From the NCBI RefSeq assembly GCF_014595955.1, contig NZ_JABVCF010000023.1, positions 1-51,535 on the forward strand: DNA of 51,535 nucleotides, written 5' to 3'. This document shows, in pieces, positions 4,250 to 13,599 of the stretch. This DNA is from Pseudaminobacter soli (ex Zhang et al. 2022). GTDB lineage: Bacteria > Pseudomonadota > Alphaproteobacteria > Rhizobiales > Rhizobiaceae. Numbering within the stretch: position 1 is the stretch's first letter; each line of letters begins with the position of its first letter. A program made the position numbers and the translations under genes. The notes beneath the pieces were generated by a model that worked only from the letters and a program-made list of their open reading frames with translations, did no database searches and was not told where the DNA came from.

Positions 4250-5653
4250 ATGCAACATGACCCTGTGACGCGCTTGTTGAACCGGGACGGCGAGCCGATC
4301 GAGGTCGAGACAATCAACGAGTTCCTCGGCGACCTTGCCGGACGCGCGATCCAGCCGCGCGACGCCGACTATGACACCGCAAGACGCATCTGGAATGGCG
4401 CGATCGACCGCTATCCCGGGCTGGTTGTGCGCTGCCTAGGCACTGCGGATGTCATACATGCGGTGAGGTTCGCCCGCGCCAAGGATCTGCAGGTCTCGGT
4501 TCGCGGCGGCGGTCACAACGTCGCCGGACGTGCGCTCTGCGACGGCGGCATGGTGATCGACCTATCCTGGATGCGTGCGGTCATGGTCGACCCGCAGACG
4601 AGAGTTATCGAAGTCCAGGGTGGCGCGACACTCGGAGACCTCGACCGCGAGACCCACCTCTATGGGCTGGCTGTTCCGACGGGCGTGGTGTCGAAGACCG
4701 GGGTGGCCGGCCTTACACTGGGCGGAGGCGTCGGCTGGCTGGTCCGCAAGTACGGGCTCTCCTGCGACAATGTTGTCTCGTTCGAGGTCGTGACGGCTGA
4801 GGGACAATTGCTGACTGCAAGCCGGGAAGAGAATCCTGATCTCTTTTGGGCGCTACGCGGCGGCGGCGGCAATTTCGGCATCGTCACGCGCTTCCGGTTC
4901 CGCGCACAGCCGATTGCGACTGTACTCGGCGGAATGATCGTGCATCCGCGCGAGCGGGCGGGCGAGGTGCTCCGCTTCTATCGTGATTTCATGGCGCAAG
5001 CGCCCGAAGACCTGACCGCCTATGCAGGCATGGTGACATCGCCGGACGGCGTGCCGGTCATTGCGATCATCTGCTGCTGGTCCGGTCCCATGTCGGAGGG
5101 AGAGCGCGTGCTGGAGCCGCTGCGGGCCTTCGGTCCACCGCTCGCCGATGTCGTCCAGCCGATGCCGTTCCCGGCCATGCAGCAGTTGCTCGATCCCGCC
5201 TTCCCCGACGGCTCGTACAATTACTGGAAGGCGAGCTTCGTGCCGAGGCTCACCGATGAGGTGGCCGACCTTCTGGTCGAGCACGGTAACCGGATAAGAT
5301 CTCCGATGTCGGCCGTGGTGATCGAGTTCTACGGCGGTGCGCCGGGCCGCGTCGGGCCCAGCGAGTCTGCCTTTGCCCAGAGACGTGCCGAGTACAACAT
5401 CGGCATCATCGCCCAATGGCTGGATCCCGCCGAGAGTGCGGAGCACATTCAATGGGCGAGGACCTTCTATGATGCGCTCGAGCCCCATTCCAGCGGCGAT
5501 CACTTCCTGAACTTCCAGAGTGAGATGGCCGATGAGGTGGTGAGGAGATCGTTCGGCGAGAACTATTCTCGGCTGGTTGAGGTGAAGCGGAAATACGATC
5601 CGACGAACTTCTTCAGCCTCAACCAGAACATCAGGCCCGCCGAAGCGGCATGA
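4250..5653 (+). CDS. FAD-binding oxidoreductase, berberine-bridge-enzyme type
   Basis: A 467-residue flavoprotein of the PCMH/VAO fold with a C-terminal BBE domain; such enzymes oxidise alcohols, sugars or C-H bonds and pass electrons to O2. RGGGHNVAG holds His about 89, the expected 8-alpha-histidyl FAD attachment. The loop that carries a second, cysteinyl FAD link in bicovalent members reads GVVSKTGVAGLTLGGG here, without Cys, so attachment should be mono-covalent. The C-terminal YDPTNFFSLNQNI is the classic BBE motif. GGAGG at 4240-4244, 5 bases before the ATG at 4250, fixes the start; an in-frame TTG at 4202 is less likely. No signal peptide is seen. The substrate is unknown. Confidence 0.87.
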   Translation: MQHDPVTRLLNRDGEPIEVETINEFLGDLAGRAIQPRDADYDTARRIWNGAIDRYPGLVVRCLGTADVIHAVRFARAKDLQVSVRGGGHNVAGRALCDGGMVIDLSWMRAVMVDPQTRVIEVQGGATLGDLDRETHLYGLAVPTGVVSKTGVAGLTLGGGVGWLVRKYGLSCDNVVSFEVVTAEGQLLTASREENPDLFWALRGGGGNFGIVTRFRFRAQPIATVLGGMIVHPRERAGEVLRFYRDFMAQAPEDLTAYAGMVTSPDGVPVIAIICCWSGPMSEGERVLEPLRAFGPPLADVVQPMPFPAMQQLLDPAFPDGSYNYWKASFVPRLTDEVADLLVEHGNRIRSPMSAVVIEFYGGAPGRVGPSESAFAQRRAEYNIGIIAQWLDPAESAEHIQWARTFYDALEPHSSGDHFLNFQSEMADEVVRRSFGENYSRLVEVKRKYDPTNFFSLNQNIRPAEAA

Positions 5654-5660
5654 GCAGGCA

Positions 5661-5693
5661 AGGCCCGAGTTCCACCCTGCGGTCCTCGGGCCT
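5661..5693 (+). terminator. Terminator-like hairpin after the BBE oxidoreductase
   Basis: AGGCCCGAG at 5661-5669 pairs perfectly with CTCGGGCCT at 5685-5693 around a 15-base loop, 7 bases after the stop codon. It lacks a T tract. Confidence 0.5.
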
Positions 5694-6099
5694 CGTCTGA
5701 CCTCTCACCTCACATCTCGTTGAAGCGCTCATGCAGGATGTTGCGCCTCATGGCAGCCGGATACATCATGCGAGGTCACGGTGTGCCTTCAATTGGACGC
5801 AGGCGGAGCATCGTGTGGTGAGCCCAGCGACTGCCTCCGGATTGCTAAACGCTGGGAGCGAATCGGCAAGTATCGAGTGTCCTTATGAGTAATGTAGGTG
5901 GGTATTGAATTCTTAGACTGCTGACACATTTGCGAAGTGTGATTGAGTAACTTAGCAATTGTACTGTCGATCAGTGCGAAGATCGCAAAATATTGCAGCG
6001 TTACTGGTGGGATGGATGCATCTAGCTGTAGGTGTAACTTGGCGCTCAGCGGTCCCTGTCCATATCGTTCGACGCGGTAAACCTCAAAGGAGGAGACAC
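5694..6099. other. Intergenic stretch before the DUF5132 genes
   Basis: About 400 bases with no convincing gene. The middle (about 5870-6010) is clearly more AT-rich than its surroundings and is the likely promoter region for the downstream metal/membrane island. An upstream extension of the next reading frame (from 5959) is rejected, because its residues look random and a near-perfect ribosome binding site lies much closer to the gene. I could not assign a firm -35/-10 pair. Confidence 0.5.
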
Positions 6100-6360
6100 A
6101 TGGAGTTCAAGGCAGGAAATCTGCTCACGGGCTTGGCGATCGGGGTCGGAGCAGCCGTGATAGCACCTGTTGTGATGCCGATCCTGAGGCCGTTTGCGAA
6201 ATCCATGATCAAGGCGGGCCTTGTGGCCTATGACCAGGCGCGGGTGTCATTGGCGGAGCTCAATGAACGGACCGGCGACATCGTGGCGGAAGCGCGCGCT
6301 GAAATGGCCGAGACCCAGAGGGCCTCCGAGGAGCGACCAAGCTCCGAGATGGCGGCATAG
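6100..6360 (+). CDS. DUF5132 family small membrane-associated protein (copy 1)
   Basis: An 86-residue protein matching the DUF5132 pattern. A glycine-rich hydrophobic helix (GLAIGVGAAVIAPVVMP, about residues 11-28) is followed by LRPFAKSMIKAGLVAYDQA and an acidic amphipathic helix ending ERTGDIVAEARAEM. AAAGGAGGAG directly upstream of ATG 6100 is a near-consensus ribosome binding site. The gene is the first of a block and has a paralogue 100 bases downstream with the same architecture. Function is unknown. The single hydrophobic segment and the neighbouring P-type ATPase suggest a role at the membrane; that is inference. Confidence 0.8.
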   Translation: MEFKAGNLLTGLAIGVGAAVIAPVVMPILRPFAKSMIKAGLVAYDQARVSLAELNERTGDIVAEARAEMAETQRASEERPSSEMAA

Positions 6361-6461
6361 CACTGCGCACCGGCCAGTCTCGGGTCTGGCGAAATGCACC
6401 GATGCAGTCGAAACGGGGTGGTGGGCGACAACAGGGGTGTGGGCCAACCAGGAGTTCTCTG

Positions 6462-6779
6462 ATGTCGGTACTCGAAGACATGTTCAAGGGCGGCAACGTT
6501 GGCACAGGCATTGCCGTCGGGATCGGAGCCGCAATTGTCGCTCCGGTATTAATGCCACTCCTTCGTCCTATCTCGAAGGCTGTCGTCAGAGCCGGGGTGA
6601 TGGCTTACGACCAGGGCCGGGCGGCACTTGCCGACGCTAATGAGTGGACATCCGACATGATAGCCGAAGCCAGGTCGGACATGGCAGGAAGGACGAACGG
6701 GCAGGCGGAGCAGACCACCGCACGTCGCACCCGCAGGGAATCCGAGCCGAGAGGCACAGGCGCGGCTACGACAACGTGA
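6462..6779 (+). CDS. DUF5132 family small membrane-associated protein (copy 2)
   Basis: A 105-residue paralogue of the preceding protein. GIAVGIGAAIVAPVLMPLL aligns with the hydrophobic helix of copy 1, and VVRAGVMAYDQGRAALADA plus SDMIAEARSDM with its C-terminal helix. This copy has an additional basic, Thr/Arg-rich C-terminal tail. The AGGAG 7 bases before ATG 6462 supports the start over an in-frame ATG at 6402. The tandem arrangement suggests duplication, and the pair may form hetero-oligomers; that is inference. A 14-bp palindrome follows the stop. Confidence 0.8.
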   Translation: MSVLEDMFKGGNVGTGIAVGIGAAIVAPVLMPLLRPISKAVVRAGVMAYDQGRAALADANEWTSDMIAEARSDMAGRTNGQAEQTTARRTRRESEPRGTGAATTT

Positions 6780-6792
6780 GCCCTGGCAAATA

Positions 6793-6806
6793 GCTCAGCG
6801 CTGAGC
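6793..6806. promoter_or_regulatory. Perfect 14-bp palindrome between DUF5132 copy 2 and the P-type ATPase gene
   Basis: GCTCAGCGCTGAGC at 6793-6806 is a perfect palindrome starting 13 bases after the stop codon of DUF5132 copy 2 and about 150 bases before the ATPase. It could be a dimeric regulator's operator. It has no loop, so it is a poor terminator. Confidence 0.3.
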
Positions 6807-6954
6807 CGGGTTCGCCGCAAGGCAAATGGCTGGTGCTAACCACCGTGCTATGACGTGCCCACGCGGCCCGCGCACGCGATGATGTTCCCATTTTCACGAC
6901 TCACCGTCGACCATTCGGCTCGAGGCCCGCGCATGTGCTCAGGTGCCGTAATGC

Positions 6955-9900
6955 GTGCTTTCTGGATGTCTTTTGGGATTTGAGAGGGTGCACAGTCCAT
7001 CCTCCTTATCCATTGTCCCACTGCATACGTCGATCCCGGGGCGAGCACGCCTGAAGGTCGATGGCCTGCAGGGTTCACCAGTCGTCAAGGATGCGCTGGA
7101 GCGCCTGGGCCGGATGGCCCCAAATGTATCCAGGCTCACCGCGAGCGATTTGACAGGGAACATCCTGATCGAGCACGAGGCAGCCACACCGCTGCATTCC
7201 ATCCTGGAATATCTGAGGGCCCGCATTCAGAGGGAGATCACCGCTCCTGGTGCGGTTTCCTCCGACACCGGCCCGGTCTGGCATACTCTTACTCGGGACC
7301 AGACATTCGCTGCGCTGCATAGTTCCGCCGAAGGCCTGAGCCGGCGCGATGCATGCCAGCGGCTGGCCGAGACGGGTCCGAACGTAACCCAGACGGTCCA
7401 GCCGCGTTCGAGCGCCAGCATCCTCGCAAGCCAGTTCCAGAGCCTGCCCGTCGCTATTCTTCTCGGTGCGGCGGCAGTTTCGGTGCTCACCGGCGGTTTG
7501 CTTGAAGCCGTCGCCATCCTCGCGGTCGTTGGCATGAACGGCGCAATCGGTTTCAAGACCGAATCTCGTGCGGAGGCGACCATACGGAGTCTCGGCGCCC
7601 AGGCTTCCCGGACTGCTCAGGCTTTGCGCGACGGGGTTTCGATAGGGGTGCCTGTCAGAGAGATTGTCCCGGGCGACGTGATTTCGTTGCGACGCGGCGA
7701 TGTGGTTCCGGCCGACGCGCGTGTGATCTCGGCGCAGGGATTGAGCGTGAGCGAAGCAATGCTCACCGGCGAGAGCATGCCTGTATCCAAACACCCTGAG
7801 CCGATTGGCGACTGGACGACACCGCTCGGGGCTCGCAGCAACATGCTGTACTGCGGAACGATCATTACGGGTGGCGGAGGGCGTGCGCTGGCGGTCGCGA
7901 CCGGCTCGTCCACGCAAACTGCGCTGATCCAACGTCTTGTTACCAGCACTGCCCGCCCCGAAACACCTCTCCAGCGACAGCTAGGCGATCTGGGCAGACA
8001 ACTCGGATGGGTGACCTTGGCTGCGGGCGCGGTGATCGCGGGCGTGGGCCTTCTGCGCGGCCAGGGCCTCATTCCGATGATCCGTTCGGCACTGTCGATC
8101 GCCGTTGCCGCGATGCCGGAAGGTCTGCCGCTGCTGGCCACCACGATTCTGGCCCTTGGTGTGGAGGCACTGCGTAAACGCGGCGTTTACGTTCGGCGAC
8201 TGGCGGCGATCGAAACCTTGGGGGCAGTGCAAACTATCTGTTTCGACAAGACAGGGACCTTGACGCTGGGCCGCATCAATGTGGAGCAGATCAGGATCGC
8301 CACAGAATCCTATTCGAGCTCGGGAGGCGTTCTGGGGCAGGATGGGAGGCCGGCCGAACTCGATCAGAAGCCGGCATTACAGCGCCTGCTCCAGGTGGGG
8401 GCGCTCTGCAGCGACGTTCAGATCGTGCACAAAGGAACCAGCGTGACCCTTGATGGGTCGCCCACCGAGTGCGCGCTCGTCCAGTCGGCCCTCGACAGCG
8501 GCATTGACGTCGCAGCGCTGCGGCAGCAATTTCCGCGCACCAAGGTTCAGCACAGATCCGAAGCCTATCGCTTCATGGCGACCACGCATGTGTCGGCGCA
8601 CGGACAGATGGTCTCCGTGAAGGGAAGTCCCGACGACGTCCTGGAACGTTGCCGATTCCAAATGCTTCCCGACGGCACGGAGCAGGAACTGACTCCGGAG
8701 CGCCGGGCACGCATCGAAGAGCGGAACCTCGAACTGGCATCCCAGGCCCTGCGGGTGCTTGGAATGGCGGAAAGGCAACTGCAAGGACAGGATGGCGGCG
8801 TCCAGGATCGGCCGGTCGAGGACCTTACCTGGATCGGGCTCGTTGGCATGGCTGACCAGATCCGCCCTGGCATACGCGAACTGATGAGCAGGCTGCATGA
8901 GGCTGGCATTCAGACCATCATGCTCACTGGGGATCAGCGGCCGACGGCAATTGCCGTGTCCGAGCGCATCCACCTGAATGGCCCAGGCGCGATTCGCGTG
9001 ACAGATGCGGCCGAACTGGAAGGCCTGACCCCTGCCGAACTTGGTGAAGTTGCGGGGCACACACAGGCATTCAGCCGGGTAAGCCCCGCGCAGAAGCTGC
9101 AGATAGTGAGATCGTTGCAGGCCGCCGGCACAACCGTTGCGATGGTCGGTGATGGAGTGAACGACGGCCCGGCGCTTCGAGCTGCCAATGTCAGCATTGC
9201 GGTGGCCGAGACGGACGTTGCCGCGGCAACCCGTGAGATCGCCGACATCCTCATCACCTCAGATCGGCTCGATGGCCTGTTGCCGGCACTCGTGACCGGC
9301 CGCACCACGCACCGGAACATCCGCAAGGCGCTCCGCTACCTCGTGAGCACAAACCTGAGTGAGGTGCTGCTTGTCCTTAGCGGCACCGCGGCCGGAATGA
9401 GTGCTCCTCTTTCGCCGATGCAGTTGCTGTGGATCAACCTCATCACCGATGTGCTGCCCGGTCTTGGCCTCGCGATGGAAGCACCCGAGGCCGATGTTCT
9501 CGAGCAGGGGCCGATGGAAGCCGACGCCCCGGTGCTGGGGCGCGACGACATTGCCGGCACGGCAGCTCAGGCTGCCATGCTTGGTGCCGGTGCGTTGGCG
9601 TCGACCCTCGTCGGCTGGCGACGCTACGGCGCAAACGCACCGCAGACAGGGACGATGACGTTCGGCAGCATCATGCTCGCGCAACTGCTGCACGCCCTGA
9701 CATCACGTTCGGAGGAGCACGGCATATTTGGACCCACCGCGCCGCCGAGAAACAATGCGCTTTCCGCGATCGTGGGCGGCTCGATCGGCGTGCATCTGAT
9801 TGCGTTGCTGCTGCCGGTGGCGAGGGGCCTGCTCGGTGTATCGCGATTGAGCGCGAGAGACGCCGCGACGACACTCGCTGGCGGGGTGCTTCCGTTCATA

Positions 9901-10008
9901 GCCATGGAACTGAACAAACTGAACTCGATCGGCCCCGGCGACCAGTTCACCTGGAGACGCGACGTGACTGCAGAACCGGACGCCTGGCCGGGCGACCAGC
10001 CCGCCTAG
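6955..10008 (+). CDS. P-type cation-transporting ATPase with N-terminal HMA-like module
   Basis: A roughly 1,017-residue P-type ATPase. An N-terminal ~75-residue module (TSIPGRARLKV ... ILIEHE) resembles HMA-type domains but lacks CxxC. The pump follows: LTGES (about 270), the phosphorylation motif DKTGTLT (Asp about 431), the nucleotide/hinge motif TGDQ and GDGVNDGPAL (about 732). The fourth membrane segment has AAMPEGLP, and the late segments carry NLSEVLL and NLITDVLPGLGLAME, which point to the P2 (Ca2+/Na+/K+-type) group and not to CPx heavy-metal pumps. Transported ion is unknown. The start is uncertain: GTG 6955 has no good ribosome binding site, and GTG 6988 is an alternative. Its stop overlaps the stop of the convergent next gene. 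Confidence 0.85.
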   Translation: MLSGCLLGFERVHSPSSLSIVPLHTSIPGRARLKVDGLQGSPVVKDALERLGRMAPNVSRLTASDLTGNILIEHEAATPLHSILEYLRARIQREITAPGAVSSDTGPVWHTLTRDQTFAALHSSAEGLSRRDACQRLAETGPNVTQTVQPRSSASILASQFQSLPVAILLGAAAVSVLTGGLLEAVAILAVVGMNGAIGFKTESRAEATIRSLGAQASRTAQALRDGVSIGVPVREIVPGDVISLRRGDVVPADARVISAQGLSVSEAMLTGESMPVSKHPEPIGDWTTPLGARSNMLYCGTIITGGGGRALAVATGSSTQTALIQRLVTSTARPETPLQRQLGDLGRQLGWVTLAAGAVIAGVGLLRGQGLIPMIRSALSIAVAAMPEGLPLLATTILALGVEALRKRGVYVRRLAAIETLGAVQTICFDKTGTLTLGRINVEQIRIATESYSSSGGVLGQDGRPAELDQKPALQRLLQVGALCSDVQIVHKGTSVTLDGSPTECALVQSALDSGIDVAALRQQFPRTKVQHRSEAYRFMATTHVSAHGQMVSVKGSPDDVLERCRFQMLPDGTEQELTPERRARIEERNLELASQALRVLGMAERQLQGQDGGVQDRPVEDLTWIGLVGMADQIRPGIRELMSRLHEAGIQTIMLTGDQRPTAIAVSERIHLNGPGAIRVTDAAELEGLTPAELGEVAGHTQAFSRVSPAQKLQIVRSLQAAGTTVAMVGDGVNDGPALRAANVSIAVAETDVAAATREIADILITSDRLDGLLPALVTGRTTHRNIRKALRYLVSTNLSEVLLVLSGTAAGMSAPLSPMQLLWINLITDVLPGLGLAMEAPEADVLEQGPMEADAPVLGRDDIAGTAAQAAMLGAGALASTLVGWRRYGANAPQTGTMTFGSIMLAQLLHALTSRSEEHGIFGPTAPPRNNALSAIVGGSIGVHLIALLLPVARGLLGVSRLSARDAATTLAGGVLPFIAMELNKLNSIGPGDQFTWRRDVTAEPDAWPGDQPA

Positions 10009-10508
10009 GCAGGCAAGAGGACAGTCTTAGATGCTACTGGATTCGACAGGAAGAAAGTCTGGTCTGGCCGCTCGGCCGCAGAGCCGATGATGGCACGAAG
10101 GACCGGCTCGGCCACCAGTTCCGCCACCTGAACGATCGGGTGCTTCGGCAGCACCATCGGCATCAGCTTCGTCACCAGTGAAACGAGGTCGAACTCGGTC
10201 CCATGGCTGACGGAGTTGCTGCCCGGGTTTGCGCCGCAGCACGGGCAGGTGCTCGGCTCGGCGTTGCCGGCCGCCGGACCCGTTTTCAGAGCCGGAGTCC
10301 ATCCGCCGAGAGGGTCGAGGTTCCTGTCATGCTCGATCGTGACGCTCGCCGCCGCCGGATTGACGGTCACGTTTCGCACGCCCTGTATGGCGTTCAACTG
10401 CTGCTTGAGGCCGGCGAAGAACTGTTCCTGGTGCCGTGCTGCGGGGATCTGGATCCGCATGCGGCCGGGAATGCGGTGGATGATATGGGCCTTCAGGCGA
10501 GGATGCAT
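10005..10508 (-). CDS. HMA-like domain protein with CPCC motif
   Basis: A 167-residue protein. Residues about 8-65 (HRIPGRMRIQIP ... NVTVNPAAASVTIEHD) repeat the module found at the N-terminus of the convergent P-type ATPase and in the protein at 12066. A linker contains TCPCCGANPG, a possible thiol metal site. The last third (LVTKLMPMVLPKHPIVQVAELVAEPVLRAIIG) is hydrophobic but broken by prolines and charges, so it may bind the membrane peripherally. No catalytic motif is seen. Its TAG stop and that of the ATPase share the palindrome CTAG at 10005-10008. Function is unknown; partnership with the ATPase is inference from shared module and position. Confidence 0.75.
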   Translation of the reverse strand: MHPRLKAHIIHRIPGRMRIQIPAARHQEQFFAGLKQQLNAIQGVRNVTVNPAAASVTIEHDRNLDPLGGWTPALKTGPAAGNAEPSTCPCCGANPGSNSVSHGTEFDLVSLVTKLMPMVLPKHPIVQVAELVAEPVLRAIIGSAAERPDQTFFLSNPVASKTVLLPA

Positions 10509-10612
10509 TACGCTTGCTGGTCTCAGTTTCAGCCGACTGCGTGGCTCGTCGGCGAACCCAATAGCCGGTTTTTACGAAGGATTAATGACAGTTGAGCGGC
10601 AATATGTGTCGC

Positions 10613-11905
10613 TCAGGAGATTGCCTGGGTCATCAGGAAAAGCAGGCAGCCGACAAGCGCGCCGACCACGGTTCCGTTCATCCTGATATATTGCAGGTCG
10701 CTGCCCACCAGCAGTTCGAGGCGGTCCGAGAGAGCCTTGGTGTCCCACTTCATGACGACATCCGAGAAGAACGAACCGATTTCGCCTCGGAACCTGACAA
10801 TATGAAGCGAAAGGCGTTCCAAGGCGGAGTCGATGTGCTTCTGCATGGCCTCGTCGGAGAGGAGGGCCTGACCGATCAGAACGAGCACACTTTCCAGAGC
10901 TTCGCGGGTCTTCGAGGATGGCGACTCCAGATCCTGCAGCAACACGGCGGAGAGATCGGTCCAGATCGAGCCGATCCAGGCCTGCACGTCGGCATGGTCG
11001 AGCAGCCTGTTCTTGGCAGCATTGATCTGATCCTGCAGTTCCGGAGAGGTCTGCAACTTCTCCACGATATCGGACAAGGATTCCCGGAATTTCAGCCGCG
11101 CTTCGCTTTCCGGCTCTCGGAGATTCTGCAGCACCTCGAGCACGCCCGAGATCATCGCATTGGCAATGCGCTTGTTGATTGCACTCGGAATCCACCAGCG
11201 GCTGCGCTGCTGGACGATCTCTTCGATCCGTTCGGAATTCTCCTGCAGCATCTTCTCGGCCATCCCGAGGGTCTGATCGAAGACGACGTCCGCTTCGCCG
11301 CTCTTGGTCAACGCCTCGACGATACGGGCCAGCACCGGGGTGATGTCTGTGCGGCGCAGTTGCTCTCCCAGGGTGCGATTGGCGAACTCGAGCAAGTCCC
11401 GCTTGCCCAGCGAGCGGATGACGTATGGCATCGCCTGGATGATCGTGTCGGCGATCCCCGCAGCGGTGGACCGACGGCCGAGCCAGACGGCGAAACGACG
11501 GCCTATCCGTAGGGCGCGCAGCTTGCCGAGCACCACCTCCGGGGTCAGGAAATGCTGCTCGATGAAAACGCCAAGTGTGCGCGCGATGCGCTCACGGCTG
11601 TTCGGGATAATCGCCGTGTGCGGTATCGGAACTCCGAGCGGATGGCGAAAGAGCGCCGTCACTGCGAACCAGTCGGCCAGTCCGCCGACGACGCCCGCTT
11701 CGGCTCCCGCCCGCAACAGCAGGACAGCGAAGCCCGGCGCCTCGACCAGATGCGTTGCGAATGTGATCCCGGCCATGGTGCCGAGGAGCGTGTTGGCGAG
11801 GACGCGGTTGCGCCGAAGGCGCCGGCGCTGCAGGGCCTCGTTCTTGAGTGTGAAGCCCTGCGGAAAGGTGCTCGTGGTCTGTGGTGTCATCATTTCCGGC
11901 GGCAT
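10613..11905 (-). CDS. DUF445 family membrane protein
   Basis: A 430-residue protein of the DUF445 (YjiN-like) family. The N-terminal region has two hydrophobic segments (about residues 35-65) and the diagnostic stretch GAEAGVVGGLADWFAVTALF, then RHPLGVPIPHTAIIPNSRERI. A long helical, charged middle resembles an apolipoprotein-like or coiled-coil domain. A final hydrophobic segment is near the C-terminus (YIRMNGTVVGALVGCLLFLM). Length is typical. Family function is not established. An internal ATG at 11893 or 11890 (MMTPQTTS) could be the true start. It lies between two genes encoding HMA-like modules, on the same strand as the CPCC protein with about 100 bases between them. Confidence 0.82.
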   Translation of the reverse strand: MPPEMMTPQTTSTFPQGFTLKNEALQRRRLRRNRVLANTLLGTMAGITFATHLVEAPGFAVLLLRAGAEAGVVGGLADWFAVTALFRHPLGVPIPHTAIIPNSRERIARTLGVFIEQHFLTPEVVLGKLRALRIGRRFAVWLGRRSTAAGIADTIIQAMPYVIRSLGKRDLLEFANRTLGEQLRRTDITPVLARIVEALTKSGEADVVFDQTLGMAEKMLQENSERIEEIVQQRSRWWIPSAINKRIANAMISGVLEVLQNLREPESEARLKFRESLSDIVEKLQTSPELQDQINAAKNRLLDHADVQAWIGSIWTDLSAVLLQDLESPSSKTREALESVLVLIGQALLSDEAMQKHIDSALERLSLHIVRFRGEIGSFFSDVVMKWDTKALSDRLELLVGSDLQYIRMNGTVVGALVGCLLFLMTQAIS

Positions 11906-12065
11906 GCATTGCCCTCTGTTGCGCCAATAAATGGTGCTCGTGTCCGAACCGCCAACATCCGGCCCTCAATGCAGTGTAATGAGGCTGAGATTGGGCGTCT
12001 GCCGGGCGCACTTGTGTCGCAATGTGGACGTTTCCGGGATCGGATCGTTGGGAGCGAGGCAACCG

Positions 12066-12632
12066 ATGCTGCCAAGTGCTACTGTCGAACACGAGCTTAC
12101 CGGGCGCCTGCGGGTCAGAGTGCCGGGCCTGCGCGGAAATCAGTCGTTCTTCCGCTCTGCGATCGAAACGCTCTCGCAGCATCCGGAGATCAGCGCGGTG
12201 ATCGTCAACCCGTCCACCGGCAGCGTCCTCATCGAACATACGACGGACCCGCAGTCGATACAGGAGTTCGCCGCCGAACGCGGACTTTTCGAAGTGCGCA
12301 GGGTACCTCCGGCACCCGCAACGCGCAGAATCGTTGTATCCCCTAAAACCGCGGCGTCAGGGCTCGTTGTCCTGGGCGCCCTACAGGCCGCGCGCGGCGA
12401 GATCCTCGGGCCTGCGTCCGAGAATTTCTGGAACGCCTATGGCGCGCTGCGGGTAATGCACAATCTGCCGCTGATGCTGCTGTTCGGCGGACTGGGCCTG
12501 TTCCAGATCTCGCAAGGCAGGGCATTCGGCTCGGCCGCCTCGCTGTTCTTCTATGCATTCATGCTGGAGCGGCTGACGGCGCCCCATGCCAACCGTCCGG
12601 CTGGGGCACGCCCACGGCTGGCCTCGAATTGA
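12066..12632 (+). CDS. HMA-like module protein with C-terminal membrane segments
   Basis: A 188-residue protein. Residues about 6-60 (HELTGRLRVRVPGLRG ... SAVIVNPSTGSVLIEHT) form the third copy in this block of the GR-x-R / IEH module. The C-terminal half holds two hydrophobic stretches (ASGLVVLGALQAARG and LPLMLLFGGLGLFQIS) and a third weaker one (GSAASLFFYAFML), so it is probably an integral membrane protein. GGGAGCGAGG just before ATG 12066 supports this start over an in-frame ATG at 11931. No CxxC metal motif is present. Function unknown; it belongs with the ATPase/DUF5132 block by shared module and location. Confidence 0.72.
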   Translation: MLPSATVEHELTGRLRVRVPGLRGNQSFFRSAIETLSQHPEISAVIVNPSTGSVLIEHTTDPQSIQEFAAERGLFEVRRVPPAPATRRIVVSPKTAASGLVVLGALQAARGEILGPASENFWNAYGALRVMHNLPLMLLFGGLGLFQISQGRAFGSAASLFFYAFMLERLTAPHANRPAGARPRLASN

Positions 12633-12643
12633 CCCGACAGGGC

Positions 12644-12660
12644 CGGGAGGCAGGCTCCCG
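12644..12660 (+). terminator. Short terminator-like hairpin after the HMA-like membrane gene
   Basis: CGGGAG at 12644-12649 pairs with CTCCCG at 12655-12660 around GCAGG, 11 bases after the stop. The stem is only 6 bp and no T tract follows. Confidence 0.3.
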
Positions 12661-12798
12661 CAATACTAACTGTAGTCAGTCCCATCCCACTCGCAGAGCC
12701 TGACGCCTCGGCCAATACACTGCTTAAGCGGTGGCGCGGCTGCCCGCCTCAGATCCTCGCCACCGTAGTGTTCCCACCCCTGTCGAGCGACGAACTAC

Positions 12799-13344
12799 TT
12801 AGTACGGATAATATGGGCAGACGTAGCGCCCATAATAATCGTAGAAGCAGTAATTGTTGGAGAGCCCATAGTAGGGAAAACCAACGCCTAGGAAGAAGTC
12901 GCCATCACCGCCGTCGAAGAAGTTATTGTTGAAGCGGTGGAATCGGTTGAAACGGTTATGGAAGAAGCGCGCATGCGCAAAACGGTTGCCGTGGAAGGAG
13001 CGGTTGCCATGGAAGTGATCAAACCCGCGGCCCATCATGGGATGGCCGAAGCCGCCCATATGACCGAAGCCGCCCATGTGTCCGAAGCCTCCCATGTGCC
13101 CGAAACCGCCCATATGGCCGCCGCCACCAGAGAAATGGCCACCGCCGTGACCGCCACCGCCACCACCCCCGCGCACTTGCACGATGGGAAGCGAGTTACT
13201 GATATCGTGGCCGGAAAGACTCGTTCCGGCTGCCAATCCCGATGGGCTAGCCAGGGCCGGTGCTGCCAACCCTGCGACAACGCCGATGGCTATTGCGCCC
13301 CGACGCATGAGGGACACGAGATGAGGTCTCATATCAGTCTCCAT
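12799..13344 (-). CDS. Secreted Gly/His/Met/Phe-rich repeat protein
   Basis: A roughly 181-residue exported protein. A signal peptide (RRGAIAIGVVAGLAAPALASP) is followed by a Gly-rich stretch and about five near-identical hexapeptides GHMGGF. A His/Phe/Asn/Arg-rich region comes next (NRFAHARFFHNRFNRFHRF), and a Tyr-rich C-terminus carries two Cys (NYCFYDYYGRYVCPYYPY). No enzyme motif is seen. His and Met repeats could bind copper or other metals, or the protein may be a structural envelope or matrix component; both are inference. The ribosome site GGAGAGGTG favours ATG 13344 (METDMRP); ATG 13365 and ATG 13332 are alternatives. Confidence 0.75.
   Translation of the reverse strand: METDMRPHLVSLMRRGAIAIGVVAGLAAPALASPSGLAAGTSLSGHDISNSLPIVQVRGGGGGGGHGGGHFSGGGGHMGGFGHMGGFGHMGGFGHMGGFGHPMMGRGFDHFHGNRSFHGNRFAHARFFHNRFNRFHRFNNNFFDGGDGDFFLGVGFPYYGLSNNYCFYDYYGRYVCPYYPY
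13046..13117 (-). repeat. Four tandem 18-bp repeats encoding GHMGGF
   Basis: Units at 13046-13063, 13064-13081, 13082-13099 and 13100-13117 share the pattern CCGAAGCCGCCCATRTG on the plus strand with only a few substitutions. They stay in frame in the Gly/His-rich gene and could expand or shrink by slippage. Confidence 0.9.
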
Positions 13345-13599
13345 CACCTCTCCAAGGTTGAACATTCAAACGGTCCCGGAAGTTATTATATTGGCACCGC
13401 TTTCAGGAGTAACGCTTTGGCCGGAAGAGTCGGAGCAGGAGCGTACCGGATTCTTGGACACGTTCGCGCGACAGTGACGTGATCGCATCCGCTTCCAGAC
13501 GCGGAGAAGGCAAACGATTGCAGGATACCGTCGGAACGCCGATTTCCGCACTATAGGCATCGGCATTTCGCCCTTAGCCGGGAATGCGATGCAGCCGCC

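Follow-up and report, generated by a model that had tools for sequence, protein, structure and literature searches.

Genes of the island

The genes and features of the island are listed below, with positions counted in the window, which is the whole stretch of 51,535 nucleotides that was analysed.

6100..6360, + strand: DUF5132 protein 1, 86 aa (Pfam DUF5132, 37.7 bits)
6462..6779, + strand: DUF5132 protein 2, 105 aa (Pfam DUF5132, 28.6 bits)
6955..10008, + strand: P2-type ATPase, 1017 aa, with an uncertain GTG start (ORF, Pfam, and motifs)
7021..7179, + strand: HMA_2-like module at the ATPase N-terminus, residues 23-75, without CxxC (our own module profile)
10005..10508, - strand: HMA_2 protein, 167 aa, with the module at residues 9-63 (Pfam HMA_2, 40.6 bits)
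10613..11905, - strand: DUF445 protein, 430 aa (Pfam DUF445, 331 bits)
12066..12632, + strand: HMA_2 protein, 188 aa (Pfam HMA_2, 37-38 bits, shorter ORF reading)

The Pfam cut-offs are 25 bits for DUF5132 and 30 bits for HMA_2. These ORFs and Pfam matches agree with the original prediction, which placed the module proteins beside two DUF5132 paralogues and a DUF445 protein. DUF5132 protein 1 has a short N-terminus followed by a Gly-rich GxxxG helix, a basic stretch, and then an acidic Glu/Ala tail, and directly 5' of it lies a ribosome-binding-like site, AAAGGAGG. The two DUF5132 proteins of the window are 48% identical; the start of protein 2 was taken as the ATG at 6462, in an ORF that is open from 6402. 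In the HMA_2 protein at 10005-10508, the module is followed by a CPCC stretch, which was rejected as a conserved metal site since both Microvirga counterparts lack it. The HMA_2 protein at 12066-12632 has an N-terminal HMA-fold module; the helices predicted after it repeat a Q-x-x-(R/Q)-G motif and are likely membrane-embedded.

A sigma-70-like promoter was sought in positions 5600-12800 and no match was found. A mobile island was also considered and rejected, since there are no tRNA genes in the window, the G+C content of the island is about that of its surroundings, and a search of the plasmid collection gave no near match. A Microvirga relative is, however, located on a plasmid.

Conservation of the gene set

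An HMA_2 gene lies within 3.4 kb of DUF5132 in all 37 retained loci, and a P-type ATPase is present at 35 of them (31 P2-type and 4 P1B-type). The DUF5132 and HMA_2 ORFs overlap or are at most 169 bp apart in 34/37 loci. HMA_2 is present in two or three copies at 22 of the 37 loci, as is DUF5132 at 7. L025 (G833) was dropped because its DUF5132 match is below the Pfam cut-off and it is without any partner gene; counting it would turn 37/37 into 37/38. The loci without an ATPase are L053, where the contig ends, and L039, where none lies in the fetched flank, while the P2 count takes in L030 (a contig-cut piece only) and L037 (a broken copy). Going by the length of the contig and the position on it, L017 duplicates L043, L022 duplicates L028, L023 duplicates L026, and L024 duplicates L027.

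Co-occurrence across genomes had been proposed as a check, and the gene set was found to be conserved in Alphaproteobacteria, Nitrosomonas, Nitrospirota, and Cyanobacteria. Since HMA_2 accompanies DUF5132 at every retained locus and a P-type ATPase at nearly all of them, the grouping is not due to chance. A chance neighborhood of unrelated genes is thus extremely improbable: nothing was found in its favor for the core, which linkage across several phyla refutes, but it may apply to DUF445 and the flanking genes. DUF445 is present at only 6/37 loci; it was therefore rejected as a core part and is peripheral or accessory. Of the ion-homeostasis complex originally predicted, the co-occurrence of DUF5132, HMA_2, and ATPase genes holds across genomes and DUF445 falls outside the core. 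The gene set is also present in isolated strains that are not known to be pathogens, with carriers such as Microvirga sp. VF16 and Novosphingobium naphthalenivorans.

Among 297 genomes, the 12 top-scoring ATPases (the window's included; at least 509.6 bits, with the next match at 475.1) were adjoined by DUF5132 in 10 cases and by HMA_2 in 11. G443 has the module ATPase and HMA_2, with DUF5132 not detected, and the G290 ATPase, which ranks 12th, has neither gene alongside. HMA_2 is commoner than DUF5132 (22 vs 7 of 297 genomes). DUF5132 is rare; counting the window's genome each time, it was found in 3 of 240 genomes of the class, 7 of 297 of the order, and 3 of 398 of the phylum.

The ATPase and its N-terminal module

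The prediction that one module is common to the ATPase N-terminus and the 167-aa and 188-aa proteins was borne out by our own profile, Pfam, and phmmer. With Pfam HMA_2 (PF19991), the ATPase module reaches only 14.4 bits, under the cut-off that both standalone window proteins pass. It scores 28.4 bits with a module profile made from 51 standalone HMA_2 rows, none of which is from the window. A pattern had given the module in 56 of 68 HMA_2 candidates and none in the other 12; the earlier 56-row profile included three rows resembling ATPase N-terminal pieces and, therefore, was rebuilt without them. A phmmer comparison connects the 12066-12632 protein with the ATPase module (E 2e-5) and with the other standalone protein (E 2e-7 to 3e-7); the 10005-10508 protein and the ATPase module gave no direct match. 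The motifs are PGRARL...TGNILIEH in the ATPase, and PGRMRI...AASVTIEH and TGRLRV...TGSVLIEH in the two HMA_2 proteins. Thus, the predicted G-R-x-R start and S-(V/I)-x-IEH end are both seen in the HMA_2 proteins, but the end in the ATPase opens with N rather than S. A conserved His stands before GRxR. The check on module structures gave like predicted folds (strand-strand-helix-strand-strand-helix) for two of the three window modules; for the third, the comparison was one of sequence.

All 33 aligned HMA_2 proteins match PF19991 at E 0.1 or better. The profile from standalone rows matched the own ORF of 29/31 family ATPases, and the module of the L084 and L086 ATPases is in an adjoining ORF. 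None of the 19 comparison rows (17 distinct) scored above 0 bits. The standalone modules have a mean charge of +2.9 and are positive in 50/53 cases. Our literature searches found no functional study of HMA_2 (PF19991).

The module has a predicted HMA fold that is CopZ-like, and related HMA_2 modules are carried by P1B ATPases. Along with the CPCC stretch in one window protein, this could indicate that the HMA_2 proteins are metallochaperones supplying the pump with a transition metal (Zn, Cu, Fe, Mn). However, classical HMA metallochaperones have a CxxC metal site, whereas CxxC is absent from the standalone modules (0/53), as originally predicted, and CPCC is present in only 1 of 33 HMA_2 proteins. 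A heavy-metal chaperone relay was set aside for this lack of CxxC. The pump, a P2 type without a CPx site, also keeps Ca-type ligands, and we consider metallochaperones unlikely.

TM4 of the window ATPase has PEGLP in place of the CPx of P1B heavy-metal ATPases, and no CPx motif is present. By these motifs, the ATPase is P2-type and not P1B, in line with the original prediction. The best Foldseek match of the ATPase model is SPCA1, and SERCA/SPCA-type calcium-site residues are kept in TM4, TM5, and TM6. These would be the equivalents of SERCA E309, N768, E771, N796, and D800, the alignment itself having no SERCA row. The TM4 Glu is found in 34/34 aligned ATPase rows, which include L089-L091, not module-bearing, and the TM5 and TM6 residues in 33/34, the exception being the broken L037 copy, which ends before them. 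Comparison ATPases (loci L065-L083, n = 19, with a full-length ORF in 16) also keep PEGL, and many also keep the TM5/TM6 residues; the calcium site thus does not set the module-bearing family apart.

The window pump shares its fold and Ca-site residues with P2A Ca2+-ATPases (SERCA, SPCA1, LMCA1). It differs from them in its additional N-terminal HMA_2 module, in scoring under the cut-off of TIGR01522 (487 vs 798 bits), and in its place in the tree, on a separate side from 17 sampled relatives. TIGR01116 was not passed either (421 bits vs a cut-off of 703). In the tree, the module-labelled ATPases form one side of a single branch (30 vs 17 rows, SH-aLRT 100). L084 and L086, with the module in the adjoining ORF, and L088, with a weak module match, were labelled module-bearing by hand, and the tree is without L037 and two duplicate comparison rows.

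A divergent SAM-synthetase (MetK-like) gene is present at 19 of the 37 DUF5132 loci and touches the ATPase gene at some of them, with a 4-bp overlap at L045. Its proteins mostly keep GHPDK (18/19), GLTGRK (19/19), and SGKD (18/19), and have lost the GAGDQG loop in 19/19, in a comparison with L104 and L105 only (two housekeeping rows, L102 and L103, were in the wrong frame and left aside). A second MetK copy lies elsewhere in 8/8 examined genomes with such a gene. All of this would suit a pump linked to S-adenosylmethionine or polyamine metabolism through what it transports or how it is regulated, with a SAM-synthetase paralogue in its operon and the pump either moving an organic cation or being enzyme-regulated. 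We find this quite improbable, given that the gene is missing, within the stretch examined, from the window and the two Microvirga loci as well as from 15 further DUF5132 loci, that the window's genome has a single MetK gene away from the island, and that the pump retains its Ca-type ligands. An ion-efflux scaffold gives no account of the presence of this gene. At L084, a single 1316-aa ORF covers pump and SAM synthetase. The joining residues do not look like the helix with which the pump normally ends, and the module is read in a different frame. Frame errors are therefore likely, and a fusion is not claimed.

A possible membrane platform around the pump

Strict GxxxG is found in 35 of 42 DUF5132 members, and segment 51-75 is net negative in 42/42 (mean -5.6, 47% E+A). 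The tails have 0-2 His and no Cys. Reading topology from charge, DUF5132 would be single-pass with N-out/C-in orientation. A literature search found no paper naming DUF5132.

In mycobacteria, the PacL/CtpC effluxosome is a P-ATPase platform whose scaffold is a small single-pass protein, and scaffold proteins of this kind cluster P-type ATPases that are heavy-metal pumps (PMC9374683, PMC13043812). The original statement that no such complex is described was, therefore, too strong. The N-terminal module is also found on a Rhodococcus plasmid ATPase whose gene adjoins one for DUF1490 (26.9 bits with the 51-row profile; 31.2 also recorded).

With moderate confidence, we propose that the island encodes a P-ATPase membrane platform working like the PacL/Ctp effluxosome, with DUF5132 as scaffold and a Ca2+/Mn2+-type exporter. 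In the mechanism that we infer, the platform would be centered on the P2A-like cation-exporting ATPase. The GxxxG helix of the DUF5132 scaffold would self-associate, and its acidic Glu/Ala tail would dock on HMA_2 modules through their basic GRxR face, at the pump N-terminus as well as in the separate HMA_2 proteins. Docking would stabilize the pump and hold it in clusters, which is the effect of PacL on CtpC/CtpG. The exported ion would most likely be Ca2+ and/or Mn2+, with roughly one ion moved per cycle. The HMA_2 module would then be a protein-docking or regulatory domain and not a Cys-based metal relay.

Another, clearly less probable, explanation is regulatory: rather than forming a clustering scaffold, DUF5132 and the HMA_2 proteins would act as subunits through which the affinity or the turnover of the P2A pump is adjusted. 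Phospholamban and sarcolipin are small transmembrane helices that act on SERCA, and here a small single-pass protein adjoins a P2A-like pump. SERCA entries with phospholamban and sarcolipin are among the Foldseek matches of the pump model, though these reflect the pump alone. The multiple HMA_2 and DUF5132 genes at 22 and 7 of the 37 loci fit a multi-part platform better, and the acidic DUF5132 tail is complementary to the basic module.

According to published work on PacL, clustering requires the helix GXXG and a helix Lys, and in the conceptual PacL model, Glu/Ala repeats touch the N-terminal domains of the pumps. For this model, docking of the acidic DUF5132 tail on the modules would be at least as good a fit as the module-module contacts originally proposed. 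PacL (DUF1490) and DUF5132 are both small single-pass proteins with a Gly motif in the helix and a Glu/Ala-rich acidic cytoplasmic part, and both are encoded with a P-type ATPase (35/37 DUF5132 loci). They differ in the spacing of the helix motif (GxxG in PacL, GxxxG in DUF5132) and in pump class, which is P1B for PacL and P2 in 31/35 at DUF5132 loci. PacL1 has a His-rich C-terminal metal-binding tail, whereas DUF5132 tails are without such a motif. Unlike the PacL/CtpC-CtpG-CtpV effluxosome, the retained DUF5132 loci all have a separate HMA_2 gene (37/37).

The sequence comparisons are no more than suggestive of homology between DUF5132 and DUF1490. hhalign gave a probability of 8% (P 0.004), with 6% (P 0.006) for a smaller alignment, and there was one profile match of 14.7 bits and one BLASTP match of 15 residues; equating the two families was set aside. 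DUF1490 is not among the families listed (25 of 39) for the 42 DUF5132 members, and the two window proteins had no DUF1490 match up to E 10. YtxH (PF12732) was matched by 7/42 members (best E 1.5e-5), and the similarity may therefore be common to many small helix-plus-Glu/Ala proteins.

More tentatively, the loci may represent a second class of P-ATPase platform that is phylogenetically wide (Proteobacteria, Nitrospirota, Cyanobacteria). The cysteine-free HMA_2 module would be a general docking tag. DUF5132 would bring tagged pumps (P2A or P1B) and separate HMA_2 proteins together in a single ion-export body, joined at about half of the loci by a divergent SAM-synthetase. If DUF5132 and HMA_2 do cluster calcium-type pumps, then the arrangement would be a general one in bacteria, extending to phyla beyond that of the mycobacteria. 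This would also give a function to two families so far without one, and a role to the HMA fold without metal-binding cysteines.

The DUF6110 'PacL-like' proteins found with P1B6 ATPases have the same general build without the metal-binding motif (PMC9374683). DUF5132 shares this build, with a different pump class, and DUF6110 was matched by 2/42 DUF5132 members (best E 0.068).

Gene content of the island and its shared module

The island in the window consists of six genes. The luciferase-like and berberine-type oxidoreductases to its left and the mfd-type helicase to its right are unrelated to the island genes.

Genes of the island
6100-6360, plus strand, DUF5132 gene
6462-6779, plus strand, second DUF5132 gene
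6955-10008, plus strand, P2-type ATPase gene (start codon inferred)
10005-10508, minus strand, HMA_2 gene
10613-11905, minus strand, DUF445 gene
12066-12632, plus strand, second HMA_2 gene (start codon inferred)

Adjoining the island is a 188-aa Gly/His/Phe-rich ORF (12802-13365, minus strand) with repeats and a signal-like start, for which a Pfam search gave no credible match.

The original prediction held that the ATPase N-terminus and the two HMA_2 proteins have one module in common, and this module proved to be real. Two copies scored above the HMA_2 cut-off of Pfam; that of the ATPase was detected at 28.4 bits with a profile from 51 standalone relatives, none of them a window row. The fold comparison covered two window modules, those of the 188-aa HMA_2 protein and the ATPase N-terminus. 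Residues 1-80 of the former were predicted to form a ferredoxin-like domain (mean pLDDT 95-98), the remaining chain being less certain. The top solved Foldseek matches were CopZ-type chaperones and HMA domains with a probability of 1.00, several at a target-normalised TM of ~0.6-0.7; no E-value was <0.001, and LuxS and other folds also appeared at lower probability. The ATPase module model agreed with that of the 188-aa protein in the succession of its strands and helices, with lower confidence (block means 57-84). CxxC was found in 0/53 standalone modules, and a His, then GRxR, plus a TGS strand are conserved instead. The standalone modules are basic, with a mean charge of +2.9, rising to +3.9 in the GRxR half.

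Linkage of DUF5132, HMA_2 and P-type ATPase genes

With one genome sampled per species, DUF5132 was rare, occurring in 3/240 class genomes, 7/297 order genomes and 3/398 phylum genomes (2 over cut-off), with the window's genome included in every count. In each of the eight class loci with DUF5132 other than the window, an HMA_2 gene and a P-type ATPase lie close by; a ninth match, from another class, below the Pfam cut-off and with neither gene, was left out. Among named genomes, 28 DUF5132 loci were found, from Alphaproteobacteria, Nitrosomonas, Nitrospirota and Oscillatoria, and HMA_2 was present in every one. Across the 37 retained loci, window included, ORF-based gene calls gave HMA_2 in 37, a P2-type ATPase in 31, a P1B-type ATPase in 4, a SAM-synthetase-like gene in 19, an amphipathic-looking repeat protein in 12, an EcsC-type gene in 8 and DUF445 in 6. 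Four of these loci (L084-L087) came via the ATPase search and the others via DUF5132, an anchor that favours recognisable members.

When the 297 order genomes were searched from the ATPase, the top 12 matches scored at least 509.6 bits and the next scored 475.1. HMA_2 was beside 11 of these 12, and one ATPase had neither HMA_2 nor DUF5132. DUF5132 was beside 10, window included, four of which were below the Pfam cut-off, and matches as weak as these four were sought only beside the top ATPases. In a quick tree built under a single-matrix model from the ATPase core, with the module excluded, one branch (SH-aLRT 100) split the 30 rows labelled module-bearing from the 17 others. The window ATPase groups with Microvirga and then Inquilinus; DUF445 and a pair of DUF5132 genes are likewise present at their loci. 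Of the two Microvirga loci, L036 matches the window in gene order, and L042 carries the window's gene set with the HMA_2-DUF445-HMA_2 block placed at the opposite side. At the Candidatus Manganitrophus locus (L037:11554-14644), the ATPase is broken into three ORFs.

The pump, the DUF5132 proteins and comparison with PacL

The TM4 Glu (PEGL), TM5 Asn and Glu, and TM6 Asn and Asp are kept across the pump family, and a Gln stands where we take the TM8 Glu of SERCA to lie, the SERCA correspondences being assumed. The TM4 motif is common to the comparison ATPases and many have the TM5/TM6 residues; therefore, these residues indicate a P2A-like pump and nothing beyond. The best structural match of the pump model was SPCA1, which is a Ca/Mn pump. 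Since the pump scored below the curated P2A cut-offs, its transported ion is a prediction.

GxxxG was found in 35/42 DUF5132 helix segments. The stretch behind the helix is basic (mean charge +3.3), suggesting an N-out/C-in orientation by the positive-inside rule. The segment that follows is negative in 42/42 (mean -5.6), and the tails have 0-2 His and no Cys. This acidic segment, together with the basic standalone modules, suggests that DUF5132 may dock on HMA_2 modules.

Two papers describe the clustering of P1B pumps into "effluxosomes" by PacL (DUF1490) proteins, which have a GXXG helix motif and a C-terminal metal motif; Glu/Ala repeats touch the pumps' N-terminal domains in a conceptual model, and DUF6110 is named PacL-like (PMC9374683, PMC13043812). 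The ATPase N-terminus of a DUF1490 and ATPase pair on a Rhodococcus plasmid matched the HMA_2 module profile at 26.9 bits. DUF1490 and DUF5132 matched at 14.7 bits by profile, and hhalign gave probabilities of only 8% and 6%. YtxH was matched by 7/42 DUF5132 members and DUF6110, weakly, by 2/42. DUF5132 did not show either of two defining features of PacL that were checked, a match to the DUF1490 profile and the metal motif. By analogy, the DUF5132/HMA_2/pump system may work like an effluxosome; its membership in the PacL effluxosomes is not established. Open-licence literature searches on DUF5132, on HMA_2 or SAM synthetase paired with P-type ATPase, and on "HMA2 domain-containing" turned up no recognisable paper on the system. 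Further prokaryotic P-type ATPase families are expected, according to one paper (PMC10654040).

Additional partners and HMA_2 modules beyond DUF5132

The S-adenosylmethionine synthetase inside the cluster in 19/37 loci is divergent. It mostly adjoins the P2 ATPase gene, in some cases touching it or overlapping it by 4 bp. GHPDK (18/19), GLTGRK (19/19) and SGKD (18/19) are present, and the GAGDQG loop is lost in 19/19. Another copy was found elsewhere in 8/8 examined genomes with a cluster copy, and the sole one of these eight that was checked (L104) is of the ordinary kind. The window's genome has one copy only, elsewhere and of the ordinary kind.

Additional genes at related loci
L018, L019, L021, L032, L034, L035, L037, L040, L043, L045, L048-L052, L084-L087: divergent SAM synthetase
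L030:10823-11512, L031:10758-11483, L043:10812-11621 and 9 more: Ala/Val/Gly-rich repeat protein
L020, L043, L045, L048, L049, L051-L053: EcsC-family gene near the cluster

The Ala/Val/Gly-rich protein (~215-280 aa) follows the HMA_2 gene and is repetitive and likely amphipathic; the two that were searched gave no convincing Pfam match.

HMA_2 was commoner than DUF5132 in the order sample (22/297 genomes). The module was also present on P1B ATPases of L020, of the cyanobacterial loci and of a Priestia plasmid carrying three HMA_2 genes, and at 8/10 further HMA_2 places selected from the order sample. Thus, the module is a wider P-type ATPase theme, of which DUF5132 marks one version. In the Priestia aryabhattai plasmid stretch (L096:3147-6659), three annotated HMA2 genes surround the P-type ATPase, all four carry the module, and no DUF5132 is among the annotated genes. 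A 731-aa HMA_2 ORF at another locus (L123:4290-6718) has no DKTGT motif, and an adjoining 71-aa ORF gave a weak DUF5132 profile match of 17 bits.
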